NCBI GenBank assembly: GCA_029560585.1
Contig: JAKQKQ010000049.1
Coordinates: 1-64,000, forward strand
DNA length: 64,000 nucleotides
Reading direction: 5' to 3'
Origin: Verrucomicrobiota bacterium
GTDB lineage: Bacteria; Verrucomicrobiota; Verrucomicrobiia; JADLBR01
Shown here piece by piece: positions 35,889-64,000 of the stretch. Position 1 is the first letter of the stretch. Every line of letters starts with the position of its first letter. A program made the position numbers and the translations under genes. A model generated the notes under the pieces. The model had not been told where the DNA came from and did no database searches. It saw only the letters and a list, made by a program, of their open reading frames with translations.

Positions 35889-38888
35889 CTATTCCAGCTT
35901 GATTGAACGGATCTCGACTGTGACACCAGCTTCGGAGACGGGGTCAAAGCGGAACGAGGTGACGCATCCGCCCCAGTCCGGATTCCGCGCGAGGTCGAAC
36001 GTGTAGGTGTGCCATTGCCCGTCCCCGACGGCCGGGACTACGACGCTGGCGGTTTCGCTCAAGCCGGACGCCGACGTGGTCCAGAAGAGCTGGGCGTGGC
36101 CGGCCGGGCGGTCGAGACGCATCTCGACGAGGGCCCGCACGAAACGGCGCGCCCGCAGTTCGATATCGGGCGACGTCACCGCCGGGTCGCGGCTGGTCGT
36201 TGTGCCGCGCAGCACGTTCTCCCGCATCTCCAGATCCGCAAACCCCGACCACTGGCTCAGCAGCGGCCCCGACCACGCGGTGGTGTCCTTCCCAGGCTTG
36301 ACCTCGCCGCGCGCCTTGAGATACCACGACTCGGGCGAGGCGAGGCCGACGTCTTGCGGAACGACATCCGTGTGCTCTTTCGGCCCATCGCAGAACACGT
36401 CGCGGATCGCGTCGAGATAGGCGAAGCCGGAGCCGCGGTTCGGCTCGATGTAGTGCCCCTCGCCGAACTCGTTCCAGCAGCAGAAAAGGACCGCGTTCGT
36501 GCCGGGGCCCGCGCGGCCGGGAAGGCCGTCGAGAGAGGTCTTGGCGCGCTGGCAGAGGTCGCGGAATTTCTCAGGCGTGTTTTCAGACCAGAAGAACCCT
36601 TTAACGTGCCACGGACGGGGATCCCAGCCCATCATGGCCACGCGGACGTCAGGCAGCAGGTTCAGATCACGTTTAAACTTCCAGAGCGCCTCCTGCTGGC
36701 CGATGAAGCCTTCGACCGGGGCGCAGGTGTGGTTGCCTTCGACGGTCACCCGCGCGGGCTCCTGCCAACAGTTACCGTAGGCGGACGTGGAGTCCCACCC
36801 CTCCTTCGCCAAGGTTTCAAGATTCGGCTTGTCCTGCGTTTGCGCGCAGGCCACGAGGTACAGGCCGCCGAGCCCGCGGCGCCCGCACTCGGCCCGCATC
36901 AGGTTGAGCGCGTTCCTGACGTTTTCGCTTCCGCCGAGCTGGGAACGCAGCTGCGAAGGAACCCAGACGTAGAGGACGGGACGGCCGTTGAAGCGGAGGT
37001 AAGACGGATGGGAGAAATAACGGTCGATCCAGAAGGGCAGCACGTTTTGCATGAGATCGTCCGTCGAGCCGACGCCTTGGGCACAGCCGTTTTCCCACAT
37101 GATGCCGAACTTCATCATCGCCTGGTAGCGGGCCTTCAGAAAACCGTCATCCAGCGCGTGGCCGAGGTTCTGTTTGACCGGCTCGTTAACGCTTGACCGG
37201 TACCAGCAGTAGATCACGCCCGAGATGCCGTGCTCGACCATGAACTTGATGTGCCAGTCGGCGACCTCGGGAGTGCCTTCATTGTACCAGCCCAGCAGCG
37301 GCTGGCGCTCGGGCCACGGTTCGATGCGCTTCCAGCCCCAGTGGGTGCCGTGCTTCCACAGGGCGCAGTAGTGCGTCCAGAGCGCGTACCGGGTTTTCGC
37401 GGGCACGGGAACCGGCACGTATGAGGCGGCGGGCGCGTGCGGATCGGCCAGGAAGGCAAGCGTCTGTTCGGCGGCAACCGGCGCCTCCAAGCCGGGTCCG
37501 GAGACACTCACCCGGAACGCGCCTTTGACCGCCTGTGCGGCTTCCACGTCCCACGTCAGTTCGGTCTCGCCGCGGTAGCCGAGCACGGCAAGGGGCTGCG
37601 ACGCGGGGCTTTTCAGCGTCACGCCTTCCGGCGGTGCGAGCGCAGCGGTGAGAGGCTGTGAAGCGCCGGCCGCATTGCGCAGGCGCACGCAGATGCGGTC
37701 CGCCCGCCCGGCTCGCGGCAAAGTGGAGCCGGTGAAAATCCGGTCGATCTGGATGTCCGGTGCGGCGCGGGGCGCTTCGCCCACCTCCAGATACTCGATG
37801 CGGGCGGTGTTCCCCGCCGTGTCGGAGGGAACCACACCCAGCGCCAGAAGGTCGCCGCCCCAGCCGGCCACGGTCCAGGGATCGAAGACGTAGGTGTGCG
37901 GTTTTCCGTCGCCGGCGGCTTTGAAGGGGAGCTGGCCCGCACGCGTGGTGGTGACATAGATGAGCGACGCGGGGCCGCCCTTGTCGGCCGTCATGCGCAG
38001 GCTGATGAAGTCCTTCTTGTCGAGGTTCGCTCGGATCCGGTTGTGGATCGCAAGGGACTGGGGCGTCTTCGAGTTCACCACCAGCCGCCCGTCGGCGAGC
38101 GAAAGGGCCGCGCCATCCTGCGCGGTCCAGCCGTCCAAACCTGCGCCGGCAGTGAAGTCGAACGACGCGGAGGCGGTGCGCGCGGCGGCGTCATCGACGC
38201 CGTAGGCTTCACCGATAATCTCGCGCGGAGACAGCGCGCGGCGGTAGATCTTCACATACTCGACTGCGCCCCGCATCCCGCCCTGCGGCAGTGAGGAGAG
38301 GATCGTGAGCGGCGCGTCGTTGGCTGCGGGCGCGTCACCGCGGCGGGGCTGCGAATGGGGGCGGCCGTTGACCCAGAGCATGGCTTGCTGGCCGTCCCAC
38401 GTGGCCGCCAGATGATACCACGCGCCCAGCTGCGGCGGGATCACACTGACGCGCGGCTCCCACTGGCCGCCCACCCAGGGGAAGAACGAGAGGCTTCCGC
38501 CCTCCTCCGCCTGGTCTACGCGGAGCTGATACTGCTTGTCCTTGTGGACGATGAACAGGCGTTCAAGTGCCCCCGTGAGCTTCACCTTGGCCACCACGCT
38601 GAAGCCGCTCTGCATATTCAGGTCGGAAGCGGAGGGCACGAGAATCTTCTGGCTGCCGTCCAGCTCAAGCACGGTCTTTCCGTTCTCGACGACGGCTTTC
38701 ACGTTGGCGAGCTGCGCGGTGTGGCCGTGGCCCGAGAGGTCGGGCAGCGCGTTGGTCGCGGCGTCGAACCGCCAGTGGGCGACAAGGCTCGGGTCGGCTG
38801 TCTGTGGGGCCGCGCAGGAAACGTGAAGGGGAACGAACAGGACGGCGGCGAACAGCCAACAGGGCAACAGAGAGCCGACTGTGTTCAT
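35889..38888 (-). CDS. Exported LamG-WbsX/GH99-like protein (larger paralog)
   Basis: A 999-residue exported protein with a signal peptide (about 1-27, PCWLFAAVLFVPLHVSCAA). Domains in order: LamG-like jellyroll at about 35-225 (SLVAHWRFDAATNALPDLSG, WYHLAATWDGQQAMLWVNGR); a beta-sandwich at about 235-375 (FDFTAGAGLDGWTAQDGAAL, DGKPHTYVFDPW); an Ig-like segment; a WbsX/GH99-like barrel at about 480-830 (GWYNEGTPEVADWHIKFMVE, HGISGVIYCWYRSSVN, NGRPVLYVWVPSQL, AVLFCCWNEFGEGHYIEPN); and a second copy of the beta-sandwich at the end (FWTTSASGLSETAS, GDGQWHTYTFDLARNPDWGG). GH99-like proteins are thought to act on mannose-type or other polymers; a catalytic role is inferred from WNEFGEG. Its ATG overlaps the upstream gene's stop (ATGA), showing translational coupling. 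Confidence 0.82.
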   Translation of the reverse strand: MNTVGSLLPCWLFAAVLFVPLHVSCAAPQTADPSLVAHWRFDAATNALPDLSGHGHTAQLANVKAVVENGKTVLELDGSQKILVPSASDLNMQSGFSVVAKVKLTGALERLFIVHKDKQYQLRVDQAEEGGSLSFFPWVGGQWEPRVSVIPPQLGAWYHLAATWDGQQAMLWVNGRPHSQPRRGDAPAANDAPLTILSSLPQGGMRGAVEYVKIYRRALSPREIIGEAYGVDDAAARTASASFDFTAGAGLDGWTAQDGAALSLADGRLVVNSKTPQSLAIHNRIRANLDKKDFISLRMTADKGGPASLIYVTTTRAGQLPFKAAGDGKPHTYVFDPWTVAGWGGDLLALGVVPSDTAGNTARIEYLEVGEAPRAAPDIQIDRIFTGSTLPRAGRADRICVRLRNAAGASQPLTAALAPPEGVTLKSPASQPLAVLGYRGETELTWDVEAAQAVKGAFRVSVSGPGLEAPVAAEQTLAFLADPHAPAASYVPVPVPAKTRYALWTHYCALWKHGTHWGWKRIEPWPERQPLLGWYNEGTPEVADWHIKFMVEHGISGVIYCWYRSSVNEPVKQNLGHALDDGFLKARYQAMMKFGIMWENGCAQGVGSTDDLMQNVLPFWIDRYFSHPSYLRFNGRPVLYVWVPSQLRSQLGGSENVRNALNLMRAECGRRGLGGLYLVACAQTQDKPNLETLAKEGWDSTSAYGNCWQEPARVTVEGNHTCAPVEGFIGQQEALWKFKRDLNLLPDVRVAMMGWDPRPWHVKGFFWSENTPEKFRDLCQRAKTSLDGLPGRAGPGTNAVLFCCWNEFGEGHYIEPNRGSGFAYLDAIRDVFCDGPKEHTDVVPQDVGLASPESWYLKARGEVKPGKDTTAWSGPLLSQWSGFADLEMRENVLRGTTTSRDPAVTSPDIELRARRFVRALVEMRLDRPAGHAQLFWTTSASGLSETASVVVPAVGDGQWHTYTFDLARNPDWGGCVTSFRFDPVSEAGVTVEIRSIKLE

Positions 38889-40648
38889 TGAGGGTTTCCT
38901 TTTCCGTAAAGTCTGATCCAATCGATCTCGAACGTCTCGTCCACGGAGCCGATGTCAAGGCGCAGCGCCTCGAGCGTGCCGCCCCATTCCCCTTCGGGTT
39001 TCTTTGAGATCAGATACGTGTGCCACTCGCCGTCGCCCTTGAGCCCGAAGCTAAACGATTTGCGCTCGGACAGCGAAGGTGCCTTCTTCGTGGTCCAGAA
39101 GACTTCACAGACGCGGCAGTCTCTTGCCGCTTTGATCCGCAGGGCGATGTGGCCGATCGCTTCGACCTCAACGCCCAAGTGCTGCACAATCAGTTGCGGG
39201 TCGCCGCTGGTGACGCGGGCCACAAACCTACCGTTTTCAAAATTGACCGGCTCGATCTGATGGAACCGCCATCCCTCGGCAGTACCGGAATCAAATTCCC
39301 ACTTCTTCAGGACATCGGTCTGCGGCAAGGGCACGTCTGTCATGATCTTCGTCGTGCGCACGGACAGGGGCGGAGGCGGATAAGGCTGGCTTTCGAGCGC
39401 TTTTGCCTGCGCGACCTCCTCGGCGTTCAGCACACTGAAGCCGGCGACCTTTGCGTCGGAAGGCAGCAGGTCTGTATGGGCGTCCGGCGCGTCGGTGTAG
39501 ACCTTGCGCACGCGGTCGAGGAATTCGAAGCCGAATTCCTTGTCGGGCTCGATATAACTGCCTTCGCCCCATTCGTTCCACGCTTCGATGATCGCGAGGT
39601 TGTTGCGTTTGTCGATATAGCGCAGGCTGGCGCGGCACATCTTTTCGAAGAGGTCCGGCGTCTTGCCGGTGATCACGACGGCTTTCCCCCGCGCACGCGG
39701 ACGGTTGTCCCAGTTGGAGTCGACCGGCACGATATATGGCAGATCCTTTTTCCTGGTGGCCGACTGCCACATGGTCTCGCAATGCGTGACCATGTCGGCA
39801 TACGGAATCGAGAAACCACTCTTCCATTCGTATGGCGAATCCATGTCGGTGCCGTAGTACGCATAGGCCGTGAAGGCACTGAAGCCTGCCGCACCGCTGT
39901 GAGGGCCGCCGTTGAGGGCCACGAAGTAGAGGTCCTTCAGGCCTTTGGCCCGAAGCACCTTGTTCATTTCCCCGATCGCGCCGCGGAATCCGGCGGGGCC
40001 GCCGTTGGCGGCCACCAGCGGGTCGGAAAGAAAGGATATGAACACGGGCCGCCCCTCCACGGTCAGATAATTCGGCCGCTTGAAATAGTTGCCCGCGAGA
40101 TATTCGGCCATCTCCGTGAGGGCCCTGACGCCAAAGTCCAGGGGGGCGGGCTTGCCGTCCCGCTTCCAGTCGAGGCTGTGGTTGCACCAGTGGATGCAGA
40201 ACTTCATGCGGTCCGCATATTTCGCCTTCAGGAAACCCTGTTCGAGCGAGCGGGAGAGGCGCTTCTCGCCTGCGTTCCAGTACCAGTCGAAGGCAAAGAA
40301 GGAAACGCCGTGTTCGAGCGCCCATTTGATGTGCCAGTCATTGACCTCGGGCAGCGAGTCGTCGTAGAAACCGAGAAGCGGTCGCGGCGCCGGCTGCTTG
40401 GCTATGCAGTTTTTCCACTCGCTGTCCTCGTCATGCGTACGGTAGGGATAGTCGCCACGTCCGGTGTCGCGGTACCAGCCAGGAAAGATATAGGCACCCA
40501 GCGTGATCCGGCCCGCGACGGGCTCAGGAGCCGGCACGTATTCGCCTCCCCAGGTCTTCGTATCCGCATGGCCCGCAACAGCCATTCCGAGAAAGGCGGC
40601 CATCGCGAGGCTTGTTATCTCGGTCCGGCAAGATGCGGAAACTGTCAT
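38885..40648 (-). CDS. Exported WbsX/GH99-like protein (smaller paralog)
   Basis: A 587-residue protein with a signal peptide at about 1-29 (SLAMAAFLGMAVAGHA). The WbsX/GH99-like barrel covers about 45-420: LGAYIFPGWYRDTGRG, GFYDDSLPEVNDWHIKWALE, HGVSFFAFDWYWNAGEK, EGRPVFISFLSDP, NLAIIEAWNEWGEGSYIEPD. A C-terminal beta-sandwich at about 455-585 (EGWRFHQIEPVNFENGRFVA, FWTTKKAPSLSERK, GDGEWHTYLI) is similar to the terminal domain of the next gene. The two are clearly paralogs, coupled by a 4-base overlap. The start was placed at MTVSASCRT. WbsX was first named as a glycosyltransferase for O-antigen, but a signal peptide and the GH99-like motif favour an exported glycosidase. The upstream 359-base gap should hold the promoter of this two-gene operon. 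Confidence 0.85.
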   Translation of the reverse strand: MTVSASCRTEITSLAMAAFLGMAVAGHADTKTWGGEYVPAPEPVAGRITLGAYIFPGWYRDTGRGDYPYRTHDEDSEWKNCIAKQPAPRPLLGFYDDSLPEVNDWHIKWALEHGVSFFAFDWYWNAGEKRLSRSLEQGFLKAKYADRMKFCIHWCNHSLDWKRDGKPAPLDFGVRALTEMAEYLAGNYFKRPNYLTVEGRPVFISFLSDPLVAANGGPAGFRGAIGEMNKVLRAKGLKDLYFVALNGGPHSGAAGFSAFTAYAYYGTDMDSPYEWKSGFSIPYADMVTHCETMWQSATRKKDLPYIVPVDSNWDNRPRARGKAVVITGKTPDLFEKMCRASLRYIDKRNNLAIIEAWNEWGEGSYIEPDKEFGFEFLDRVRKVYTDAPDAHTDLLPSDAKVAGFSVLNAEEVAQAKALESQPYPPPPLSVRTTKIMTDVPLPQTDVLKKWEFDSGTAEGWRFHQIEPVNFENGRFVARVTSGDPQLIVQHLGVEVEAIGHIALRIKAARDCRVCEVFWTTKKAPSLSERKSFSFGLKGDGEWHTYLISKKPEGEWGGTLEALRLDIGSVDETFEIDWIRLYGKGNPQ

Positions 40649-41477: not shown

Positions 41478-44400
41478 TCACTGTTGCGGCAAGCCCTTGG
41501 CCGCCGGCGCCGCCTTCTTGTTCGCCGCGTTCCACGATGCCATCCAGGGGGGCGGCATGGCGATCGGGTTCAAGACGTGGCGCACAGGCCCCAGCCGGTA
41601 CACCTCGCGGTACAGGTGCTCCTGCGCGGCAAAATAGTTCTCTGCCAGCGAGCATAGCGCGCTTTTGAGTCTGATCGCGACTCTTGAAATCAGGCTGTTG
41701 TTTTCTTCCGCGGCGGCCAAGCCGAATGGATCAATTAGGACGTCTGGACCGTTTATCGCGTATCCGTAAAGGAGAAGCTCCCCGTACAGGAATCGTGTCG
41801 GATCTTCGGTAGCAAAGCGGCCAAGCGATGGGACGTAGTATCGGTTTCTAAAGAAGCTGAAGGAAGTTTCGCGATCTAGTTCTCGCGCAACAAAGCCAAG
41901 GCGTTCGTCGAGAGCGCCATTGCCATGATCGCGGTCTTCACCGAATGCAGTATAATCCGCAGCTTGAACAATTTCGCCCAGCGGATTGGCTTCTTGAGAC
42001 ACGCTTCCAAGTCGATTTGGCAGATACCACTGGACGCCATTCTCGGAATCATGTCGCGCGATGGCTTGGTCAACGCGTTCGGTGTATAGGTAGCGAACCG
42101 TCTCACGTGTCCCGCTTTCCGTGAGTAGACCCGTCCAGAGGTTGTCGCGGTCGTGGCAATAGTTTTCCGTTTTCGTTGTTCCGTTTTCCGTGACGGTCTT
42201 GGCGATGCGGCGGCCGGTGGGATCGTAGGCGAAGGTGACGCCGAGGCTCTCGTGGCCGGAGGCGTCGGACTGGATGGCGGCGGTGAGGCGGTTGCGGTGG
42301 TCGAAGGTGTACACCCAGCGTTCGCCGGTGGTGAGGTGGGTTTTGCCGACAAGGTTGCCTTCGTCGTCGTGGGTGTAGGTGTGCTCGCCGTCGGAGAGGA
42401 TGCGGTTGGCGGGGCCGGTGCTGTACGTATTAGTGAACAAGGAGGAAACGGAGGTAACGGAGAGGGTCCTATTCCCCGCGGGGTCGTACGAATAGGTTTC
42501 GTCGGGGAGGACGGAGCGGTCGGCTCCTGTCAATTGGCCAATGGGGTCGTGGGTGTACGCGACCGTTTCGACGTGGTTGGATTCGGCCAGGAGTTGGCCG
42601 GCGGGATCGAACTGGTAGCGGTAGAAGCCGAGCACGTCGCCGGAGGGGGCGGTGTGGGTTAACGCCGTCATGCGGCGGAGGGTTTCGACAGATGGGCCGA
42701 GGAGTTCGGCGTGGTCGGGCTCGACGGCGAGGGGGCCTCGGGCTTTCAACGGCCGGATCTGGTCCAGCCAAGCCAACGATTCGCCCTCGAAGAGGGCGGT
42801 CTGTGCGCCGAGGTCGGCCTTGCCTCGGGCGAACTCGTAGGCGGTTTGGACGGAGGGCATGCCGTTAGCGAAGCGCACGATGTTCGTGAGGTCTCCGAGG
42901 GCGTTATAGGCGAGGGCGACGTCGGCGGGGGTGACCCCTCCCCCGCTCCAGGCGCGGGTGGCGAGGCGCCCGGCCGGGTCATAGGTGGAGGCGACGGTCA
43001 CGCCTTCGCCGTCCCAGGTACGGGTGACGCGGGAATTGCCGTCGTAGGCGTAATTCAAGACAAACGGCGCCGTGTCCCCCGGCAGCCAGCGGGAGATGGT
43101 TTCGAGGCGTCCGACGGCGTCATAGGTCATCTCGTGCCGGCTGTCGGGGTCCTCCATCATCACGGGTCGGCCAGCGGGGTCGAACTGGGTCTCGATGACC
43201 CGGACCACCGCGTTGGTCTCGATCCAGGTTTCGCGGACGGGGCGGTTGAGGGCGTCGAAGTCGAAGCGGCGGGTGCGGTTGAGGCGGTCGGTGATGGCGG
43301 TCTGGTTCCCGGCCGCGTCGTAGGAGAAGAAGCGCGCCTTGCCGAGGGGGTCCACCTCGGTGATGAGCCGGTTGAGGCCGTCGTAGCGGAACTCGGTCCG
43401 GTTGTTGTTCGGGTCGGACAGGGCGGTGCGGTTCTTCGCGTTGTCGTATTCGAAATGAACGGTATGGCCGGCATTGTCGGTGATGGACATCAGCGCGCCG
43501 TCGGCGCGGTAGGCGCGGAAGGAGTTGCGCCCGATCTGGTCGACGAGGTTCGTGAGCCGTCCGAGGGCGTCATAGTGGTACTGGTTCGTGCCGCCGTTGG
43601 GATCGCGGACCGCGACGATGCGGAAGGCGGCGTCGTAGTCGATGCCCGTCACGTGGCCGAGGGGATCGGTGACCTGGTCCAAGGCGCCGTTGGTGTTGTA
43701 GCGATAGCGGAACGTATTCCCCAAACCGTCGCTACGTGCCGTGAGGCGACCAGCGTCGTCGGTTTCGAAGCGATTCGTGTGGCCTTCGGCGTCGATGTAG
43801 AGGTTTGGGCGACCGAAGGCGTTGTACGTCATGCGGTGCGTGATGCCGCCGGGCAGGACGAACGCGTTGGGTTGCGCCGAGAGCATGACGCCGGGGCCGG
43901 GCGGTTCATAGCCGAAGCCAAAAGTGCGCCCATCGGGCTGCCTCACCGAGGTGACGCGGCCGTAGTCATCGCTTTGGAATTGCGTCTTATGTCCGGCGGC
44001 GTCGGTGCGGGCCGTCAGGTTCCCGTAGGCATCATATTCGTAGCGCTCGGTGCTTCCGAGGGGATCTGTGACCGAGAGCGGGTTGTTGTTCGCATCGTAG
44101 GTGTAGCGGGTGGTGTGGCCCAAGTCATCGGTGCGCTCCACTAGGTTACCGCGCGCGTCGAAGCGGTTGGAGGTGGTGCAGGCACACTCTGGCGTGACGA
44201 CGATTGGCCGATCTTTCTCATCATACACCGTGGTGGAGACCGCGCCGATCTCGTTGACGGTGCGGGTGACATTGCCGCGGGGGTCATAGGTGGTGGTGAA
44301 GGTGCCGCCGTAGGTATTGATTCGGGTTTCGGTGAGGCCGTCGTCGGAGTATAGGTAAGCGGTGGGGTTTCCGAGGGCGTCGGTGAATCGCTCCAGGCGG

Positions 44401-44504
44401 CCGCGGTCGTCGAAGGTGGGCAGCGAGAGCGCCTCACCGCAATCTCTCTGACTGGCGCTCGATGCCAAAGCGCCGAGAGTCAAAACAAAAACTCGATAAA
44501 ACAT
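41478..44504 (-). CDS. RHS/YD-repeat protein with C-terminal tip (third RHS unit)
   Basis: A 1008-residue exported RHS protein. A signal peptide (YRVFVLTLGALASSASQ) leads directly into YD repeats of the form GxxxxYxYDxxGRLTxxxDxxG, with no further N-terminal domain. Examples are RYTYDANNNPLSVTDPLG and RLNRTRRFDFDALNRPVR. The core closes with FFRNRYYVPSLGRFATEDPT, then PDVLIDPFGLAAAE, the DPxGL place where RHS proteins cleave themselves. The tip is about 80 residues long (SLISRVAIRLKSALCSLAEN, ending KKAAPAAKGLPQQ) and its activity is unknown. The frame also opens at a TTG two codons earlier. The core is clearly diverged from that of the giant RHS gene, so it is a separate lineage. No immunity gene could be identified after it. 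Confidence 0.87.
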   Translation of the reverse strand: MFYRVFVLTLGALASSASQRDCGEALSLPTFDDRGRLERFTDALGNPTAYLYSDDGLTETRINTYGGTFTTTYDPRGNVTRTVNEIGAVSTTVYDEKDRPIVVTPECACTTSNRFDARGNLVERTDDLGHTTRYTYDANNNPLSVTDPLGSTERYEYDAYGNLTARTDAAGHKTQFQSDDYGRVTSVRQPDGRTFGFGYEPPGPGVMLSAQPNAFVLPGGITHRMTYNAFGRPNLYIDAEGHTNRFETDDAGRLTARSDGLGNTFRYRYNTNGALDQVTDPLGHVTGIDYDAAFRIVAVRDPNGGTNQYHYDALGRLTNLVDQIGRNSFRAYRADGALMSITDNAGHTVHFEYDNAKNRTALSDPNNNRTEFRYDGLNRLITEVDPLGKARFFSYDAAGNQTAITDRLNRTRRFDFDALNRPVRETWIETNAVVRVIETQFDPAGRPVMMEDPDSRHEMTYDAVGRLETISRWLPGDTAPFVLNYAYDGNSRVTRTWDGEGVTVASTYDPAGRLATRAWSGGGVTPADVALAYNALGDLTNIVRFANGMPSVQTAYEFARGKADLGAQTALFEGESLAWLDQIRPLKARGPLAVEPDHAELLGPSVETLRRMTALTHTAPSGDVLGFYRYQFDPAGQLLAESNHVETVAYTHDPIGQLTGADRSVLPDETYSYDPAGNRTLSVTSVSSLFTNTYSTGPANRILSDGEHTYTHDDEGNLVGKTHLTTGERWVYTFDHRNRLTAAIQSDASGHESLGVTFAYDPTGRRIAKTVTENGTTKTENYCHDRDNLWTGLLTESGTRETVRYLYTERVDQAIARHDSENGVQWYLPNRLGSVSQEANPLGEIVQAADYTAFGEDRDHGNGALDERLGFVARELDRETSFSFFRNRYYVPSLGRFATEDPTRFLYGELLLYGYAINGPDVLIDPFGLAAAEENNSLISRVAIRLKSALCSLAENYFAAQEHLYREVYRLGPVRHVLNPIAMPPPWMASWNAANKKAAPAAKGLPQQ
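42162..42192. repeat. Short-word repeat GTTTTCCGTTTTC inside the RHS gene
   Basis: The words GTTTTCCGTTTTC and GTTCCGTTTTCCG follow each other, coding the segment TVTENGTTKTEN. A similar word array is found at 46052-46080 in the orphan RHS gene (coding KTENGT) and in the first codons of the 170-residue gene near 45060-45088 (MENGKLEKGK). This is a simple-sequence insertion inside coding DNA. Confidence 0.4.
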
Positions 44505-44574
44505 CGCCAAAGCAACCGGGCAGTCAATGTCTCAGCTCGCCAAGTTGGACCGCGTACCCCGCGACGAGACAAGG

Positions 44575-45106: not shown

Positions 45107-45466
45107 TTACAAGAGCATGAGGTATAAGGGGAATAGCACGACACCAAACGGGTCGACGACGGAGACGGTATATCCTGCCTCGGAAATTGCCTCCGCGATC
45201 GAGTAGGCCGCCAATCGTGCGTCATTGACGTTATAGAAGATAATTTTGCTGTATCGATCAGCATATCCCCAACTGGCCCCAAATTTGTCAGAAATCAAAA
45301 GTCTCCATTCATGGCGTGACACTTGGGAGATCGTAATGCCGTATTCGTTTCGCGATACACCACGCCCAGAAGGATCGACATTTCTGAGCGGGCTTCCTTC
45401 CGCATATGAATAGACCCAACGGCTGGACGGCCGACGGGCGGTGCCCTCAAACGGATCCCGGCTCAA
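45107..45466 (-). pseudogene. RHS tip module separated from its core by a frameshift
   Basis: The frame opens at a TTG with SRDPFEGTARRPSSRWVYSY and AEGSPLRNVDPSGRGVS, which is the end of an RHS core (SRDP, DPSG). The tip after it is about 80 residues: ISQVSRHEWRLLISDKFGAS, then IIFYNVNDARLAAYSIAEAI and a hydrophobic end VVLFPLYLMLL. It continues the preceding orphan core in a different frame, overlapping it by four bases. One missing G near 45474 would restore the fusion (TCGGGCGCTTC in place of TCGGGGCGCTTC). Without ribosomal slippage or a sequencing error the toxin tip is cut off from its core. Confidence 0.65.
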
Positions 45467-46455
45467 GAAGCGCCCGAGTCCGGGGCGAGGTACCTTGCCC
45501 GGAGGTAGTAGAACCCGGTTTCCGGGTCAAGGCGCTGGCCGGTGTAGAGGTGGGGGTTGGGCGTGGTGCAGGTCTGGGTCAGGAGGTTGCCGTAGGCATC
45601 GAAGGCGTAGGTGTCGGTGACGGAACCCGCGACACCGCTCAGGGCGCGGGTGGTGCCGAGGTGGTCGGCGTGGTACCAGTGGAGGGTTCCGCCGCGGGAT
45701 TGCGCGATGAGGCCCAGGCCATGGACGTAGGAGGCGGCGATGGAACCGCCGGGGGCGTATTCCTCGACGACCTCGGCGTAGGGTTGGACTTGATCGATCA
45801 GAAATCGGGTCTCGGTGCCATCGACGGCCTTGGAGACACGGATGCCGTCGGCATCGTACTGGAATTGGACCACGGATGACGCGGATGACGCGGAGCGGAG
45901 GTGGTCCAGGGCGTTCCAGCCGTAGGTGGCCGCGGTTTCGCCGTTTATCGTCTTGGAGTTTAGCCGACCCGCATCGTCCCAGGCGTAGACGGCGCTTGTC
46001 GAGCCACTCGTTTCCGTTAACAACCGGTCGTTCGAATCGTAGGCGCAGTCGGTTTGCCGTGTTCCGTTTTCGGTTTTCCACAGGCGGTTGCCGACCGGAT
46101 CGAAGGCATAGTCGATGGCGAGGTCTCCATTGACGGGATCGGCGATGCTCTCTTCGGTCAATCGGTCCAGGGCGTCGTAGGTGTACTGGGCCTTACGGCC
46201 CCCGAATTCCTCGATGGCGGTCGGGTTCCCGACGGCGTCCATGGTGTAGCGGAGTGAGGCAAACACGCCCGAATTGTTCCTGTGTGCAATGTAAGCGATC
46301 CGATTCAGCGGATCAAATTCTCGAAAGGTGTTTGCGCCGTTGGGGAGCGCGGTGTTCGTGGGGTTCCCAGCCGGATCATATGCGCATCGGGTTACCCCAC
46401 CCTGCGGGTCGATCACGGTTTCGAGCCGATTGAGGGGGTCGTTGATGATTCGCAA
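45463..46455 (-). pseudogene. Orphan RHS core fragment, frameshifted at its end
   Basis: A 330-residue piece that matches the last part of the giant RHS protein over about 280 residues, for instance TYDALDRLTEESIADPVNGD, YAWDDAGRLNSKTINGET, SKAVDGTETRFLIDQVQPYA and GYFYLRAR-type FYYLRARYLAPDSG. It starts without a methionine: its frame runs upstream into the end of the DUF4288 gene, and the first possible start is TTG at 46455. At the conserved core end SGRFLSRDP it stops as SGAS because of a one-base loss. It is thus a displaced core cassette, as found downstream of full RHS genes, and probably not translated on its own. Confidence 0.75.
45872..45895. repeat. Short-word repeat ACGGATGACGCGGATGACGCGGAG
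   Basis: Two and a half copies of GGATGACGC inside the orphan RHS core, coding SASSASS. The matching place in the giant RHS gene codes SPSSAV and lacks the repeat, so it is an in-frame insertion. Confidence 0.4.
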
Positions 46456-46468
46456 CCGGTTCGGGAAT

Positions 46469-46786
46469 TCATGAATGATCCGGAAAAGGAATTCTCATAC
46501 TTAGCACGTCGGCCTCCTTAAGACCACGATTGAAAATCCGCACTCCTGATTTTAGTTCATGGCTCTCGATTGGATATATCTTCTCGATGCTGTCAAATGT
46601 CCATGCTACGCGCTTGCCCGTCCCTCCGATATACTCGTGTTCCGAATCCTTTCCGATTTCCAGCGCGATCCTGTAAGCGTCCTGCTCGGATGTTGCGTCA
46701 ACCATATAAATGCTCTCGTCCCAGATCGGGCACTGTGATGCGCCTTCAACTACGGCTTTCACCAAAATGGCCACGGAGAACCACAT
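46469..46786 (-). CDS. DUF4288 protein, probable RHS immunity protein
   Basis: A 105-residue protein matching the DUF4288 pattern: WFSVAILVKAVVEG, WDESIYMVDATSEQDAYRIA, LEIGKDSEHEYIGGTG, RVAWTFDSIEKIYPIESHEL and GVRIFNRGLKEADV. DUF4288 proteins are small cytoplasmic proteins often found in toxin-immunity loci. The gene begins 6 bases after the stop of the giant RHS gene, the classic place of an immunity gene for its tip. The end of the gene runs into the start-less orphan RHS core, and the last codons share the sequence of the orphan's upstream frame, which marks a recombination joint. Direct evidence for immunity is lacking. Confidence 0.78.
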   Translation of the reverse strand: MWFSVAILVKAVVEGASQCPIWDESIYMVDATSEQDAYRIALEIGKDSEHEYIGGTGKRVAWTFDSIEKIYPIESHELKSGVRIFNRGLKEADVLSMRIPFPDHS

Positions 46787-52700: not shown

Positions 52701-55700
52701 TGGTAGGACCAGGTGTCGCCGAAGCGGACACGGGTGGATGGGGTGGATGTGATGACGGGGGGATCATTGGAGGCGTCGGCGACGACCGCCAACGTGTAGG
52801 ATTGGATGGACTCGCCGTTGTGGCCGTCGAGGGCGGTGATCTCGATGGGATGAGTGCCGATCTCGCCGGTGGTGGGCCGGAAGCGGAGGATGCCGGTGGT
52901 GGCGTCGAAGTCGAAGTCGCCGGGCGGCGGGCTGTCGAGGCGGAAGGAGATCGCGTCGCCATCGGGGTCCCGGGCGCGGAGGCGGTATTCGTAGGGGAGG
53001 TCGGCGACGGCTTGTGAGGGAGCAACGGAGAGGATCACGGGGGCATGGTTGGCGGAGCCGACGGTGAGTTGGAAGGGCTGGAGGGTGACGGCGCCGCGAG
53101 CGTCGGTGGCGCGGAGGATGATCGTGTGGGTGCCGATCTGGTCGCCCGTTGGCGACCAGATGATGGAAGATGGAAGAAGGAAGGCAGAAGATGCAGAGGA
53201 AGAACTTAGGATCATGCCTTCGGGGGCGAGGGCGAGAGTGACGGTGATGGCATCGTGGTCGGGGTCGGAGACGGCGATGTCGTAGCGGTACTGCGTGTTG
53301 GGGAGCGCGGTGGTTTGGGGGAAGGAATCGAAGACGGGGTTGCGGTTGAGGGCCTCGACGGCGGCCTCGAGAGTGAAGGATTGGGTGGCCTCGCCGCCGC
53401 GGCCGTCGATGACGCGGATGGTGACGGGGTAGGCGCCGGTCTGGTCTGGGCTTGGAGACCAGGAAATGAACGCAGAACGCGGATCGCCGAACGACGAATG
53501 CAAGGCCATGCCATCGGGGCCTTCGACGAGGAACCAGGTCAGGGGGTGGCCGTCGGGGTCTTCGGCGCGGAGTTGGTAACCGTAGTTGCGGCCAACATCG
53601 GCGAGCGTCGGGGGCTGGGAGGTGATGGCGGGGTTTTGGTTGGCGGTGCCGGCGGTGACCTCGAGCTGGAAGCGCTGGGTGGCGGAGGCGCCCTGGCCGT
53701 CGTCGGTGCGGATGGCGAAGGCGTAGGTGCCGGGGGCGGTGGGCACCCAAGCGATGTCGCCGGTGGCGGGGTCGATGGTGGCGCCGTCGGGGCCCTCGAG
53801 GAGGGCGTAGGCGAGCGGGTCGCCATCGGGATCCACCGCGCGGGCGCCGTAGCGGTAGCGCTGGCTCATGCTCACGGGGATCGAGCCGAGGAGGCGACCG
53901 GTGCCGGGATGGACGAAGAGCAACTCGAAAGAGCGTGCGTCCTCGGGCGCGGTGAGCCGGACGTCGAAGGCCGCGGTTCTGCCGGGGGTCATGCCGTAGA
54001 GTGGGCCGGTGAGGTTCTCGAAGCCGACGGTGGCGTCCGAGCAGCGCAAGTCGACCACGGCGAGCTGGCGGAGGATTTCCTCGGCCTTGATATCGACAAA
54101 GGCGCGGGTGAGGGATTGGGCCATGAGCGGGCCGCCTTGGCTCACTTGGGTGAGGTCCCAGGAGCCGCCACCGGAGGCCCATGAGAGGTCCACGTAGGTG
54201 CGCTTGACGTCATCGGAGGTGTGGCCCTCGAAGATCGGCCCGATGAAGACCCCGTTGGTCGAAGTGGTGTAGCCCCCCGCCCCGTCGGGCAGGTACGCGT
54301 TGCCGTCCGCATCCACGCCGAGGGCGCGGTTGCCGAGGGCGTCGGCAAACTCGGCGTTGACGACGCTATTGAGCGGGGCGTTGAGCGCGCGGAGCCCCTC
54401 GAGCATCACGTTGGTGGTCAGGTAGGGGCGGTAGCCGAAGAAATGGTCGTTGTCGCTGAGGAGGATGAAGTTCTTCGCGGCCTCGGGACGGAAGGCGAGG
54501 CTATTCATGGCGAGATCCAGGGCGCAGTAACCGTCCTCCTGGCCGAAGGCGGAGTAGAGATCCAGGGCGTGCTCAGAGGTCCACGCGGCAGTCTGCGCGG
54601 TGCCGAAGAAGGGCTCGAGGCGCAGGGCCTGCCCTGCCTTGGCCTCAAAGCGGTAGACGAGGGCGTCGGGCGGGGCGAAAAGGTCCCCGGCGAGCGCCTC
54701 GCCGACCGGACGCGCCGCGGCGCGGGTGTGGAGGCGGAAGGCGTAGTCCCCGGTGGCGTCTCCGCCGTAGACCAGCAGCGCGTAGGTGCCCGATTCGGGG
54801 AGCGTCATGGGACCCACGTCCGCCGAAGGGGAGGGTGAGAGCACCCCGAGCAGCGAGACTCCCTTCGGACTATACAGGTAGCACTTGATGGCCGCCGATG
54901 CCGCGACACGTCCATCGAAGTAAATCCTCTCACCCGCCCCGGCGGTGAAGTGGTAGACGTGGCGGTCGCCCGGGTTGGCTAGGGAACCGGCGATGGTCCG
55001 GTCGGTCTGGGCGGGGATGAAGGCGTCCTCGGGGAACGTCGCGCGGAAATCGTAGGAGATGGCTGCGGCGGTATTGCCGGCGATGACTAGGACGCAGGGT
55101 TCGGCACAGGGCAGGGTCGTGTCGAGGCTGACGGTGCCATACTCCGAGTCGATCTGCTTGTTGTCGGGCCCATAGAGGTTCCAATGGCCGACCGTCGAGG
55201 TGCCGGGGAGCTTGTCGATGAAGAGCCGATGACCGGCGGCGCCCTGGACGCGATAGGCGACGGCGCCGAGCCCGGGATCCAGCGTGCCGGTGGTCTCAAC
55301 ACCAGGGGTCAGGAGTGGGGCGTCGGAGAGGTCGAGGATGCGGACGGCGTAGTTGCCGGGCTGCGCGCCGGTGACCACGAGCGTATAGGCACCGGATTGC
55401 GGCAGCACGACAGGCCCGCGATCGGCGTTTGCGGCGGTCGCCCCGATGGCGGCGGATCCGTTCGGGGCGAGCAGGTAGGCTTGCAATTGGGACGAATCAG
55501 CGGTGATTCCGTCGAAGTAGACCCGGAGACCGGCCGGCGCGTGGAGGGTGTAACGATGCTCCTCGTTGGCCGCGGCAATCGCACCCGAATAAACGGTACC
55601 GAAGCCCGAGGCCGTGACGGGGACAGGGTCGGTGACCGTGGCGCGGAACCGGTAAGTGATGGGATTCGCGGAGCCATTATCGATCGCGAGCGTGTAGGTG

Positions 55701-58700
55701 CCATCGGAGGGGAGCACGGCCGTGAAATCCCAGCCCAGGGGCTGCACGCCAAGCCGGGAGCCGCCGGGACCCCACAGGCTCCACTCGCCGTAGGCAGAGG
55801 AGAGACCATCGAGGTCCATCCGCTGCCCGGCCCGGCCCTCAACGAGGAAGATTCGCCTCTGGTACGGGCCGCCGACAGCGACCTCGATGTCGGTGCCCGT
55901 GGCGACCGGTTCCGCGGCGGCCTCGTCGAGCAGGCAGAACGCGTAATCGCCCGTTTCCATGCGGTCGTCGAAGTGGATCGCGTAGGTGCCGGTCTCGGGC
56001 AGGACGATGGGGCCGCCGTTGGCCCAGAGGGAGTATCCGCTGAGGCCGGGCACCACGGTGCCCGAGGGTGTGATCAGGGACACGATCTGCCGCGAGCCGT
56101 AGTTGACCGGAGAGCGACCGTCATACCAGAGACGCTGCCCGGCGTTGCCATGAAACTGGTACAGGACGGACTGGCCCGGCTCGGCCACGGTGTCATGGAC
56201 AAGCGTGCCGACCGTGAGAGGCAAGGTGCGCGTGGTGGCCACGAGGGCCCGGAAGGTGTGGTCGTAGGCCGTCGATCCGGACGTGTTGCGCAGGAGGAGG
56301 TAGTAGGTGCCATCGGCAGGTAATGAGGCCATGAAGGAACTGGCCAGGCCGGTGCCAGCGGAGAACTCGTCGGCACCGAAAAGCTGCCACGCCTCCCCGT
56401 AGGTGTGGGGCGCGATCGATTCGACGTGGAAGAGCAGGCGCTGTCCGGCCGTGCCCTCGACGCGGTAGGCGACGGCCTCTCCGGCGCGGAGGTGGGTCGC
56501 GGCGCTCTCCCCTGTCCCGATGGGCGGGGCGGCGGACAGGTCGTGGAGGCGGAAGCTGTACGGCCCGCCGGAACCGACGTCGGCCAGGATCAGGTGATAG
56601 GTGCCGGAGACCGGGAGGCTGGTCATCTTGTAGTAATCGCCGCTGGCGGCGTGGCCGCCGATCACGACCAGATTGCCGGGCCCGACGAGGCTGGCGCGAG
56701 CCGAGGTCGGGGAGGCGCGCCCGTCGTAAAAGACCGGGAGTCCCGCGGGGGCGCGGAAGGTGTTGGTGATGGTCTGGCCGGGGGCGAGCGTGCCGCTGTA
56801 GGTCTGGTCGAAGCCCTCGGGGGCGACCGCCTCGGGTTCGGGGCCAAGCGAGGCGGGCAGGCGGAAGGACTGGGGCAGGTCGGCATCGCTCCTCGGGGTG
56901 ACCACCACTGTGTAGGCGCCGTCGGCGGGCAGCGCGTCCATGCCGTGGCCGGAGACCCCGTCCCACGAGCAATTAACCGAGCCGATCTTGCGGTTACTCG
57001 GGGAGAAGACGCTGACATAGCCCATGAGCCCGCTGGTGTTGACATGGCGCGGGTTGACGGTGAAGGCGGTCATGGCGAAACGATTCGAGGTGATCCCGAT
57101 ATCCTCGAGCCTAGCGTCGAGGGCCGGTATCATGTCGGCGAGCCAGGCGTGCTCGGTGAACATCGAGCCGGTCTCATCGACGACAAAGACCACGTCGGCC
57201 GAACCCCCGAGGGTGCCGTCCCCCGAGAGCGCCAGCGAAACGGTCGCTACGGTGCCGGTGCCGGGCGGCAGGTCGTAGGCGAGGAAGGCCGGGTCCACGT
57301 CACCGCAGGCCGTGCGGGCCGCAGCGATGGCGAATTGGGTGGCGGGTTCCGATACGAAGGCGGGGGCATGGTTGCCGGGGCTCTGGCCGACGGCGACGCA
57401 GAAGGTCTGGGTCGCCGTCCCGCCGCGGCCATCCTCGGCGCGGAGGGTGATCGTATGGACGCCGGTCTGGTGGCCAGTTGGCGACCAGATCAGGCGCGAG
57501 GCGGCAGGCTCGAGGCTCGAGGTCAGGGTCATCCCCGCAGGGCCGGAGACGAGGCTGAGAGTGACGGGGTCGCCGTCGGGATCATCGGCCTTCGGTGAGT
57601 AGGCGTACTCGGCGCCGATGTTGGCATCGACCACGGGGGTCGAGGTGAAGACGGGCGGGCGGTTGGGGGTGTCGCTGTGGACCGAGAGGGTGAAAGACTG
57701 GGTGGCGGAGGCACCGCGTCCATCCTCGACGCGGAGGGTGATGCGGTGGTTGCCGAGGTCGTCTGGACCGGGGGTCCAGACGAGGCGCGAGGTGCTAGGT
57801 TCTGGGCCCAAGGTGAGGGTCATGCCGGAGGGGGCGGCTAGCAATTGGAACGCGAGGGCGTCGCCGTCGGGATCCTGGGCGATCGCGTCGTAGCGGTACT
57901 CCGCGCCGGGGGCGGTGGTGGAACGCGGTGTGGAGGTGAAGGCGGGCGGGTGGTTTGCCGCCCCAAGGAGGGTGAGGCGATAGGAGAAGCGGACGCGGTT
58001 CGGGTTGTGGAACGCGATGGGGCGCGCGGCGGTGGAAGCGCCGGGCCCGAGGCCATCCTCGGGCAGGAGGTTCGAGAAGTCGAAGGCGGGTTTGCCGTCG
58101 GGCGTGAGGCCATCGGCGCCGAGCACGCGGACCGAGGGGTCGCTGATGCCGTCGATGACGAGGACGATCTTCCCGGCGATGGGCGCATCGCCGGAGTTCT
58201 GGAGGGCCAGATCGGCGAACAACGTCCCGGAAGTCTCGTCGAAGGAGGTGCGGTGGTAGACTGACTCAAGGTCGGCGGTGATGTCCGCAAGGCCGTCGAG
58301 GGCTTCCGGGTGGAGTACGCCGGGGGAGATCGACGGGGGCGCGGCGTTGGTGGGGAAGGCGAGGTTCGTCTGCACGAGGCTGACCGGACCGATGCGCACC
58401 GCGGTGGTGGCGTCGGCGTCCTCGTTGACGAGGCGGGCGACCAGACGCGCCCCGGTGCCTTGCGGCAGGCCCGAGATATCGATATGGACGGTGCCCGCGC
58501 CGTTGGTCATGTCCAGCAAGACTCCCGCCGCGATGGCGGGCGCCTCGCCCTCGGTGAGGTTGAGGGCTGCGTCGCGCCCGGGCGCGAAGGCGGGTACCAG
58601 TGGAACGCCGTTGGTGTCGACCAGCGCGATCTCGAGGGCGTCGTTGATCGCCTGGGGGTCGGCGGTATCGAAAGCAAGGTTGGTGAAGCTCACCGCCAGC

Positions 58701-61469: not shown

Positions 61470-62714
61470 TCATCCCCCCGCCCCCGCTCCCAAGACCCAC
61501 TCGCGGGCATTGCCAAGAGCGATGCCCCGCACTAGATCATCGACCATCCTTTCATCCTCCGGCATCTCGCCGCGCTCCACCCTCTCGCCCAGCCAGTCGC
61601 ACAGCACCCGCCGGAAATATTCGTGTCGCACCATCGATAGGGGACTGCGCGAATCTGTTGTCATGCCGATGAACGTCGAGAGCAATCCATGGTTGGCCAG
61701 CGCATCGAGGTGATGCCGGATCCCGAGCGCGTGATCATTGTACCACCATGCGGGCCCGAGCTGGATCTTGCCGCGAACGCCATCTTCGGCGAACGAGCCG
61801 GTGAGGGTCGCGAGGGCCTCATAGTCGGCCGGATTCACGGGGTAGAGCACCGTCCGAGGCAGACAGCCCTCCCTTTCCAGCTCATCGAGAAACCCGCACA
61901 GGCGCGGGATATCGCAGCTGTTGCCGATGGTGGCATAGCCGCCCGCCGGACCGGCCAGTCCCCTCAGGCGCGTGCTCGTCTGGCGCCGCGCGCCAATATG
62001 GAGCTGCATGATCCAATTTCGCCGAGCGTATTCCCGGCCGAAAAATTGCAGCGTCTCCGACTCAAATCCAAGGATGGCATGATCGGCGAGCCTGCAGCCC
62101 ATTTTGTCGAAGGCGTCCATCGTGGCGACCATCGTCACCCGATCGGGCGCCGTCAGATCGTCCACGCGCAATGACGGGAGCACGCGGGATCCGAAATCCG
62201 ATCTCGCCAGCCGGGCGTGGGCACCAAGGTCGTCCGCCGGCCGATCGGATGTGCACAGGCACTCGACATTGGCGCGCGCGATCAGCCCCCGCGCCGAGTA
62301 ACCGTCGGCATGAAGCATGGCGTTGCATTTCTCCCAGATATGATCGGCTGACTCGGGCGACAGTAACTCCGAGATGCCAAAGTAACGCTTCAACTCCAGC
62401 GCCGTCCAATGAAACAGGGGGTTACCGAGGGTCTGTGGCACTGTCGCCGCCCACGCGTCGAATCTCTCGCGGTCCGTCGCATCGCCCGTAATAAGCCGTT
62501 CGGGCACACCCGCGATGCGCATGGCGCGATGCTTGTACGGATCGTTGGCGATCCAAACCCCCGTGATGTTATCAAACGTCCGGTCATCGGCCAAGTCGCG
62601 CGCATCGATGTGATTATGAAAATCGATGATCGGCAATCCCTCGGCAATGCCGTGGTATAGCCGCCGCGCAACCGATCCCTTCAACAGGAAATCCTCGTGG
62701 ATGAACTCTTTCAT
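61470..62714 (-). CDS. uxaC: Glucuronate isomerase, compact form
   Basis: Isomerises D-glucuronate to fructuronate and D-galacturonate to tagaturonate, the first step of uronate use. The 414 residues align with UxaC along the full length: MKEFIHEDFLLKGSVARRLY, the metal motif IIDFHNHIDARDLADD, KHRAMRIAGVPERLITGDA, GNPLFHWTALELKRYFGI, RRNWIMQLHIGARR, GKIQLGPAWWYNDHALGI, IGMTTDSRSPLSMVRHEYFR. It is about 55 residues shorter than the E. coli enzyme, because two helical inserts are reduced (before MGCRLADH and between ADHAILGF and FFGREYA). Its ATG overlaps the stop of the GH28 gene (ATGA), so pectin cleavage and galacturonate entry are coupled. Confidence 0.92.
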   Translation of the reverse strand: MKEFIHEDFLLKGSVARRLYHGIAEGLPIIDFHNHIDARDLADDRTFDNITGVWIANDPYKHRAMRIAGVPERLITGDATDRERFDAWAATVPQTLGNPLFHWTALELKRYFGISELLSPESADHIWEKCNAMLHADGYSARGLIARANVECLCTSDRPADDLGAHARLARSDFGSRVLPSLRVDDLTAPDRVTMVATMDAFDKMGCRLADHAILGFESETLQFFGREYARRNWIMQLHIGARRQTSTRLRGLAGPAGGYATIGNSCDIPRLCGFLDELEREGCLPRTVLYPVNPADYEALATLTGSFAEDGVRGKIQLGPAWWYNDHALGIRHHLDALANHGLLSTFIGMTTDSRSPLSMVRHEYFRRVLCDWLGERVERGEMPEDERMVDDLVRGIALGNAREWVLGAGAGG

Positions 62715-64000
62715 CGCCGCTCCAGGGTCTTGGCCTTGGGCCCCCCTTCGGCCCGCAGGCCCGACTCGTCGAAATCGGCCACGTCTTCGACAATGATGGC
62801 CGGTCGGGCATCTGCCCCGTCCAATGATAAATCCACGTTATGGAGCCGCAGCCCCTTGACGTGCCGACAAAAGAACCCGTATGCGGGCAGTGTCCCGAAC
62901 ATGTCGCCCTTCGGATAGGATGTCTCTTTCTCTGGCACCGTCCGCGTCGCGTCCCCGGCCGTGCCGCCACCGACAAATCGGATGCGGATGTTGTCCAGCG
63001 TCACATTCCCCACCGGGTGGTCTGGCAGCCCAGTGACCGAGCAACCCGTGACCGCCGCGCCGTCGGCCTGGATGTTGGAAATCATGATGTCCCGCATCTT
63101 GCCCATCGCCGGCTTCTCCCGTCCTGGCAGCGGGTTCGCGCGGTTGCCCAGTCGGACAAAGATCGGCACGGCCACGTTCCGCATGACAATGTTCGACACG
63201 TTGATCCGCTCGCACGCGCCGCCATCCACCTCTTCGATGGAGACCCCGTCGCGCGTGTCGTACACCACGCAGTTGCCGAACGTAATGTCCTCGAAGCCCC
63301 CCTGCGATTCCGTCCCCAGCTTGAGGGCCGACGCGGAGCTGGACAGCGTGCAATTCGATACCGCCACCCGCCGGCAGGGTCTCGCGGCGGTGGACTTCAG
63401 CACGATCGCGTCATCGCCGCTGTAGATGTCACAGTTCGATATTCGCACCCGGTCGCAGCTGTCGATATCCATCCCATCGCGATTCTCGCGAATGCGGCTG
63501 TGAATCGTGACACCGTCGATGGTCACATTCTCGCATGCCAGATAATGGGACAGCCAGCGCGCCGAGTCGCGCAGCGTGAGATCGCGGACCCGGACGTCGC
63601 GGCACTCGCTGAACCGGATCAGGTACGGGCGCCCACCGTCATCGCCCTTCTTGGCGGGGAAGAGTTTGCCCTGACCGTCGATGACGCCACCGCCAATCAG
63701 CCCGATGTGCTCCTGCCCTTCGGCAAAGATCAGGCTCTTCGTGAAGCGCCCTCGATACAGGTATTCGATCCTCGGTGTGATGCTGGGATAATCCCGGATA
63801 TCCGCGCTGCCTCGCAACGTCGCGCCGCCCTCGATGTGAAGCGTGACGTGACTACGCAGGCAAATCGTTCCCGACAGAAAGACCCCGCCGCGCAGCATCA
63901 CCGTCCCACCGCCGGCCTCCGCGCACGCATCGACCGCCGCCTGGATCGCCGCCGTGTCGGGAGTCCGGCCGTCCACCTTCGCACCGAACTCCCTGGGGTC
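62711..64000 (-). CDS. GH28 polygalacturonase-like protein (5' end outside window)
   Basis: Hydrolyses galacturonan-type pectin or a related polymer. The visible part is about 429 residues; the frame is open to the window end (FGAKVDGRTPDTAAIQAAVD), so the start and any signal peptide are missing. GH28 motifs are present: ENRDGMDIDSCDRVRISNCD (first catalytic Asp), SGDDAIVLKS (the Asp-Asp pair), LKLGTESQGGFEDITFGNC and DGVSIEEVDGG. The usual QGH/GH motif is replaced by KLGTES, as in many bacterial GH28 proteins, and the usual RIK is not obvious. Its stop codon overlaps the uxaC start by four bases. Confidence 0.9.
   Translation of the reverse strand, partial: DPREFGAKVDGRTPDTAAIQAAVDACAEAGGGTVMLRGGVFLSGTICLRSHVTLHIEGGATLRGSADIRDYPSITPRIEYLYRGRFTKSLIFAEGQEHIGLIGGGVIDGQGKLFPAKKGDDGGRPYLIRFSECRDVRVRDLTLRDSARWLSHYLACENVTIDGVTIHSRIRENRDGMDIDSCDRVRISNCDIYSGDDAIVLKSTAARPCRRVAVSNCTLSSSASALKLGTESQGGFEDITFGNCVVYDTRDGVSIEEVDGGACERINVSNIVMRNVAVPIFVRLGNRANPLPGREKPAMGKMRDIMISNIQADGAAVTGCSVTGLPDHPVGNVTLDNIRIRFVGGGTAGDATRTVPEKETSYPKGDMFGTLPAYGFFCRHVKGLRLHNVDLSLDGADARPAIIVEDVADFDESGLRAEGGPKAKTLERR

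Follow-up and report, generated by a model that had tools for sequence, protein, structure and literature searches.

Insertions in von Willebrand factor A (VWA) domains are already known, as in RrgA, GBS104 and ComC. In the pilus tip adhesins RrgA and GBS104, two arms are inserted in the VWA domain (D3), where they lie around the metal ion-dependent adhesion site (MIDAS) and are proposed to shape or gate the ligand site (PMC7893114); in ComC/PilY1, a finger-like protrusion is inserted in the VWA domain, and its deletion affects function (PMC10374093). Si3 of cyanobacterial RNA polymerase spans residues 345-983 and comprises eight tandem SBHM beta domains (PMC10802570; PMC13114784). As a rule, inserted domains are smaller than their hosts (77% of 48,263 pairs; PMC13114784). 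Here we analyze a stretch of 64,000 nucleotides from a Verrucomicrobiota bacterium (contig JAKQKQ010000049.1, positions 1 to 64,000; hereafter the window), in which the giant open reading frame P0001 (46793..60805, 4,670 amino acids) encodes an RHS (YD-repeat) protein in which one small, adhesion-type VWA domain is divided in two by an array of PPC-like repeats. We consider it likely that the region is best explained as a whole by a doubly nested module, in which an immunoglobulin-like (Ig) domain holds the VWA domain, the VWA domain holds the array, and the array is closed by a composite unit drawn from its two ends. All coordinates are those of the window, and all features given lie on its minus strand.

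RrgA and GBS104 resemble the window protein in having insertions inside a bacterial VWA-fold adhesin; however, their arms are beta-hairpins and loops and not an array of complete domains, and in RrgA the MIDAS is present and metal-bound. ComC/PilY1 likewise has a lineage-specific insertion within the VWA domain, but one of ~90 residues (deleted residues 166-256) with no domain array. Si3 shares with the window insert its nature as a very large tandem beta-domain insertion in a loop of another domain; it differs in fold and host, and a closing unit contributed by both ends is not found in the accessible parts of the two reports. Neither a PPC array within a VWA domain nor a split closing unit turned up in the open-access literature searched. 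What is new here is an insert several times the size of its VWA host, with a split closing unit.

The VWA N-half of P0001 (residues 1202-1262; 57020..57202) contains beta1 with D1210-x-T1212-x-S1214, alpha1, beta2 and beta3, while the C-half (residues 2066-2247; 54065..54610) contains alpha2, alpha3 with Q2089, beta4 with D2118 and beta5, together with a family-specific GVDADGNAYLPDG segment and a C-terminal helix. The motifs quoted in a preliminary description of this DNA are all present in their places: VVFVVDETGSM at residue 1205 (57193), EHALDLY at residue 2078 (54574), NFILLSDNDHFFG at residue 2112 and ALGVDADGNAY at residue 2161. The wide separation of the halves that it reported also stands, although its figure of about 820 residues is corrected to 803 with the junctions set by homologues; the insert is thus 3.3 times its 243-residue VWA host.

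Searched separately, as the preliminary description had proposed, both halves match one contiguous VWA protein. This relative (L010, also P0002), a 306-residue Verrucomicrobiales protein found in a bacterial genome scan, has a continuous VWA domain and is a close relative of the C-half; BLASTP aligns the N-half with its residues 42-91 (50% identity, 4e-11) and the C-half with its residues 125-276 (41% identity, 1e-25). In a second relative, L014, a continuous VWA domain is fused to an autotransporter-like C-terminal region (autotransporter barrel) and passes the Pfam thresholds for both VWA_2 (28.3 bits, cut-off 27) and VWA (25.3 bits, cut-off 23.8). Together, the two halves of P0001 cover one continuous domain, in which every secondary-structure element occurs once. 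That they form one VWA domain split by the repeats, as the preliminary description had claimed, is supported because these continuous homologues exist and because a second protein, described below, has the same two junctions.

The two VWA-like parts might instead be separate degenerate domains with no joint fold. The window N-half alone reaches 12.2 bits against Pfam VWA, below the cut-off, the C-half alone gives no Pfam VWA match, and a MIDAS Thr is replaced; yet the halves give complementary coverage of one continuous domain, and the continuous relatives go against the refuting case named in the preliminary description, two independent domains in this order with no continuous version. We regard this reading as highly improbable. 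Because neither half scores alone, Pfam domain counts miss split domains of this kind.

More distant continuous relatives occur on a Haloarcula plasmid, in a Moorella phage and in two further genomes (G674 and G659). Among the plasmids searched, none gave a VWA relative in this family closer than that of Haloarcula, and no relatives were found in viral contigs with four query sequences. The phage protein (CDS0050 of Moorella phage MTATph1, L067) is 1364 amino acids long, has a related VWA domain and lies beside a virion structural gene.

An orthologue of P0001, in one 5,609-residue frame, came from G687, which is among 293 genomes scanned in another Verrucomicrobiota order and was absent from the first phylum- and class-wide samples. 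Its VWA halves match L010 at 58% (7e-17) and 42% (7e-37) and are 1,678 residues apart, so that the insert is 7.1 times its 236-residue VWA host. This protein has the same nesting of Ig3, VWA and PPC array as the window protein, with the same junctions and the same split unit; the N-terminal junction region (Ig3 start, VWA N-half and first half unit) is 37% identical between the two and the C-terminal one (VWA C-half, the segment after it and Ig3) 44%. It differs in having 16 units in place of 8, Val in place of Gln at the MIDAS Thr, and a GIY-YIG-like C-terminal tip (21.7 bits, just below the cut-off of 22.6).

The window VWA residues that flank the insert are RHVNTSGLMG and FFGTAQTAA, and L014 reads uninterrupted through HGFVVGSG QFGTVSDF. 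In the G687 protein, the VWA residues beside the insert (SHIFPVAGG and YFGSAAFF) meet those of the continuous relatives without loss. By sequence alignment set against the VWA fold, the cut therefore lies between beta3 and alpha2, in the loop that joins them, with no VWA residues lost.

An assembly chimera, or a misjoining of repeats in the window genome, could in principle produce such an interruption, since the draft comprises 336 contigs with a contamination estimate of 4.2% and the region is repetitive. The absence of near-identical DNA repeats and the smooth guanine-plus-cytosine content argue against a chimera, as does the single open frame, and it is refuted by the same junctions in the independent G687 genome from another order; we leave it practically no weight. 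Since those shared junctions exclude an assembly error and point to inherited nesting, the interruption of the VWA domain is a real, inherited design.

The array between the VWA halves opens with the C-terminal half of a B-type PPC unit (residues 1263-1320; 56846..57019; B-model positions 43-92), continues with seven full PPC-like units in the order A1 B1 A2 B2 A3 B3 A4 (residues 1325-2030; 54716..56833) and ends with the N-terminal half of a B-type unit (residues 2031-2065; 54611..54715; B-model positions 7-39). Matches to the unit models agree with the seven full units counted in the preliminary description. The units are ~100 residues each and ~38% identical to one another; A and B types alternate, and the full units of the window begin and end with the A type. 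Over this array, Pfam PPC (PF04151) scores 41.3 bits (cut-off 25.9; 3e-10), and a profile of 30 units matches solved PPC-fold chains (4dy5, 1.5e-5; 5sv5, 3e-5), which include collagenase collagen-binding domains and the lysozyme inhibitor PliG. By profile, these proteins (5sv5, 4hpk, 1nqd, 4dy5) share the unit fold; unlike the window protein, they have one or two terminal copies and no nested array. The G687 array consists of fifteen full units and two end halves, and its units give no Pfam PPC match yet match the unit profile.

In the window, the start half scores 22.8 bits, against at most 4.8 in 1,000 shuffles, and the last half 15.8 bits, against at most 4.9 in 1,000 shuffles. The G687 start half is also a C-half (model positions 39-89, 24.6 bits) and its last half an N-half (model positions 9-37, 10.8 bits; B-model positions 7-37, 12.1 bits). 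The window start half is closest to the G687 start half; a correspondence with the unit that opens the cyanobacterial arrays considered below was tested and not supported. The preliminary description had read the partial end units as if the array had entered by in-frame recombination inside a unit. They are indeed complementary parts of one B-type unit; because the same break point is kept in G687 with twice the units, the end halves look maintained rather than like the scar of a recent recombination.

We propose that the stalk of this giant, secreted RHS protein bears the module, that the two VWA halves would fold together, and that the end halves of the array would come together where it enters the VWA domain and form a single composite PPC unit. 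Once folded, such a unit would hold the two chain crossings for the 800-1,700 residues inserted in a 240-residue domain, and as a seal it would keep the chain ends at the spacing of the VWA loop whatever the repeat number. The array (8 units in the window and 16 in G687) would then form a closed chain whose base is anchored on the VWA domain, and the repeat number could change by whole A-B pairs with the VWA domain undisturbed. Only when the two end halves are counted as one unit do the arrays amount to whole numbers of A-B pairs, 4 in the window (8 units) and 8 in G687 (16 units). If the halves join, they would illustrate a general rule for inserting a repeat array of variable length in a folded domain while leaving it free to grow or shrink, which predicts a repeat number that changes in whole pairs around a fixed break point and is open to a database test. 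A more specific geometry, in which 8 or 16 beta-sandwich units make up a closed ring or loop, sealed by the two-ended unit plugged into the VWA loop, and the ring size evolves by whole A-B pairs while the seal stays, is put forward tentatively, as a possibility that we would not yet favor.

Alternatively, the VWA halves may join while the end halves are cut remnants, unfolded or packed on their neighbors, so that the array is an open arm. Out-of-phase insertion of a segment of whole units would give complementary halves without any function, and the end halves score weakly; on the other hand, both halves persist, broken at the same point, although the two proteins differ in unit number and are only 37-44% identical around the junctions, and a half sandwich left unpaired would have its hydrophobic strands exposed. 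For these reasons an open arm seems unlikely.

Several results weigh against the doubly nested module with a composite closing unit, in addition to the Pfam shortfalls of the VWA halves. The last half of the G687 array is weak, since one of 1,000 shuffles reached its score, and the two end halves are not mutual best matches across the window and G687 proteins. A length in whole pairs is automatic for any inserted segment of whole units and is thus no proof of a functional closing unit. Beyond the window and G687, no nested VWA domain was found in 1,990 genome searches (repeats included) of the class and phylum, which covered a sample, so that further nested homologues may well exist. AlphaFold modeling of residues 1190-2262, with an alignment of L010 fragments only, gave a mean predicted local distance difference test score (pLDDT) of 47.7 and a predicted template modeling score (pTM) of 0.31, and the continuous relative L010 gave a mean pLDDT of 45.9 and a pTM of 0.55. 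Because these models are poor, the joint fold, the large lobe and the composite unit are inferred. Integrin I/A domains rank first in a Foldseek search with the low-confidence L010 model; the poor model of the nested region returns mixed beta-sandwich matches that include the tandem collagen-binding domains of ColG, a hint only. A match to Bt and clostridial proteins in this list was set aside, since it reflects nothing more specific than the geometry of beta-sandwiches in a model of low quality.

Four of the five MIDAS positions are kept in the window VWA domain (D1210, T1212, S1214 and D2118). The DxSxS position reads D1210-E-T1212-G-S1214, with Thr replacing the first Ser, and is DQSGS in G687; the Asp after beta4 is kept as D2118 in LLSDND. 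The MIDAS Thr, which is kept (in TEDGY-type segments) in all six continuous relatives compared (L010, L014, Moorella, Haloarcula, G674 and G659), is replaced by Q2089 in the window and by V in G687. A tie between the loss of this Thr and nesting, with two nested cases, is suggestive only. The nested VWA domain could still be a metal-dependent adhesion domain like the integrin I domains, with the repeat lobe shaping or gating the ligand site; the four retained residues and the position of the RrgA and GBS104 arms around the MIDAS (PMC7893114) speak for such a role, whereas the substitution of the Thr in both nested proteins makes it doubtful. Because this Thr is replaced, the window VWA domain may be more a scaffold than a metal-dependent binder. 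With a degenerate MIDAS it would act mainly as a hub that displays the repeats, which would form a large lobe on the VWA core, and a lobe of units like collagen-binding domains would serve adhesion or target recognition.

The VWA domain is itself nested in an Ig (He_PIG) domain, Ig3, a feature absent from the preliminary description. Ig2 (He_PIG, residues 1048-1144; 57374..57664) is uninterrupted in the window and in G687. Alignment with G687 places the N-terminal strand region of Ig3, whose cyanobacterial counterpart is uninterrupted, at residues 1145-1160 (57326..57373) and the remainder of the domain at residues 2312-2385 (53651..53872). The Pfam He_PIG match within this remainder (residues 2319-2384) begins only at profile position 21, and the first strand of the domain lies before the VWA N-half, at residues 1145-1160; Ig3 therefore encloses the VWA domain, which encloses the PPC array.

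Plasmid-borne giant proteins of cyanobacteria are orthologues of P0001 and colinear with it, at 28-42% identity in the pre-Ig, middle and RHS regions. These proteins (for example WP_017291740.1, WP_015211663.1 and BAZ65188.1; "putative Ig domain-containing" or YD repeat) carry a PPC array of the same type, with alternating units, also nested; they differ from the window protein in having 21-26 units with whole units at both ends and in holding the array in Ig2, between "...WTPPP" and "GLFKVRLEASDGQGG...". No VWA domain was found in the cyanobacterial records. With the array in Ig2 in cyanobacteria and in the VWA domain of Ig3 in the window and G687, the same gene family thus offers it two host domains.

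On a Gloeothece plasmid (L049), a C-type-lectin-like domain of ~137 residues, assigned by eye, lies within a PPC unit at residues 3865-4090 (model positions 36|39). This insertion uses the same PPC loop as the break in the nested arrays, so that attachment through two strands at this loop is also seen outside the nested proteins. Another lectin-like domain lies between units of the same protein, at residues 2462-2616. Close to the N-terminus, giant proteins on Rhizobium and Mesorhizobium plasmids (L047, L048, L051 and L053) carry exactly sixteen PPC units, in arrays that are not nested and in which some units are repeated in near-identical blocks.

From its N-terminus, P0001 comprises a hydrophobic segment, Big_7, Ig1, Ig2, the interrupted Ig3 and further Ig domains; Pfam and NCBIfam matches show the C-terminal part passing from He_PIG/Big_9 Ig domains through RHS/YD repeats (RHS_repeat, 4.6e-112) and the RHS-associated core (Rhs_assc_core, 63.7 bits, cut-off 32.5) to a short tip. 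RHS/YD repeats, the associated core and a variable tip are the layout of RHS polymorphic toxins, and the shell and tip of P0001 would resemble those of interbacterial polymorphic toxins. The tips of P0001 and the G687 protein differ; that of P0001 has no Pfam match and no recognizable toxin domain.

Directly downstream of the giant gene lies a 105-residue DUF4288 protein (46472-46786; Pfam 1.2e-13), a candidate immunity partner of the P0001 tip. It is followed by a truncated RHS fragment without a tip (45466-46455) and a second RHS protein (41481-44510; 1010-residue frame, RHS core above the cut-off), an arrangement of two downstream frames that resembles orphan RHS modules. Glucuronate isomerase (UxaC), GH28 and a LamG + WbsX/GH99 protein, encoded nearby (61473-63976 and 35892-38921), make this a polysaccharide-degrading neighborhood.

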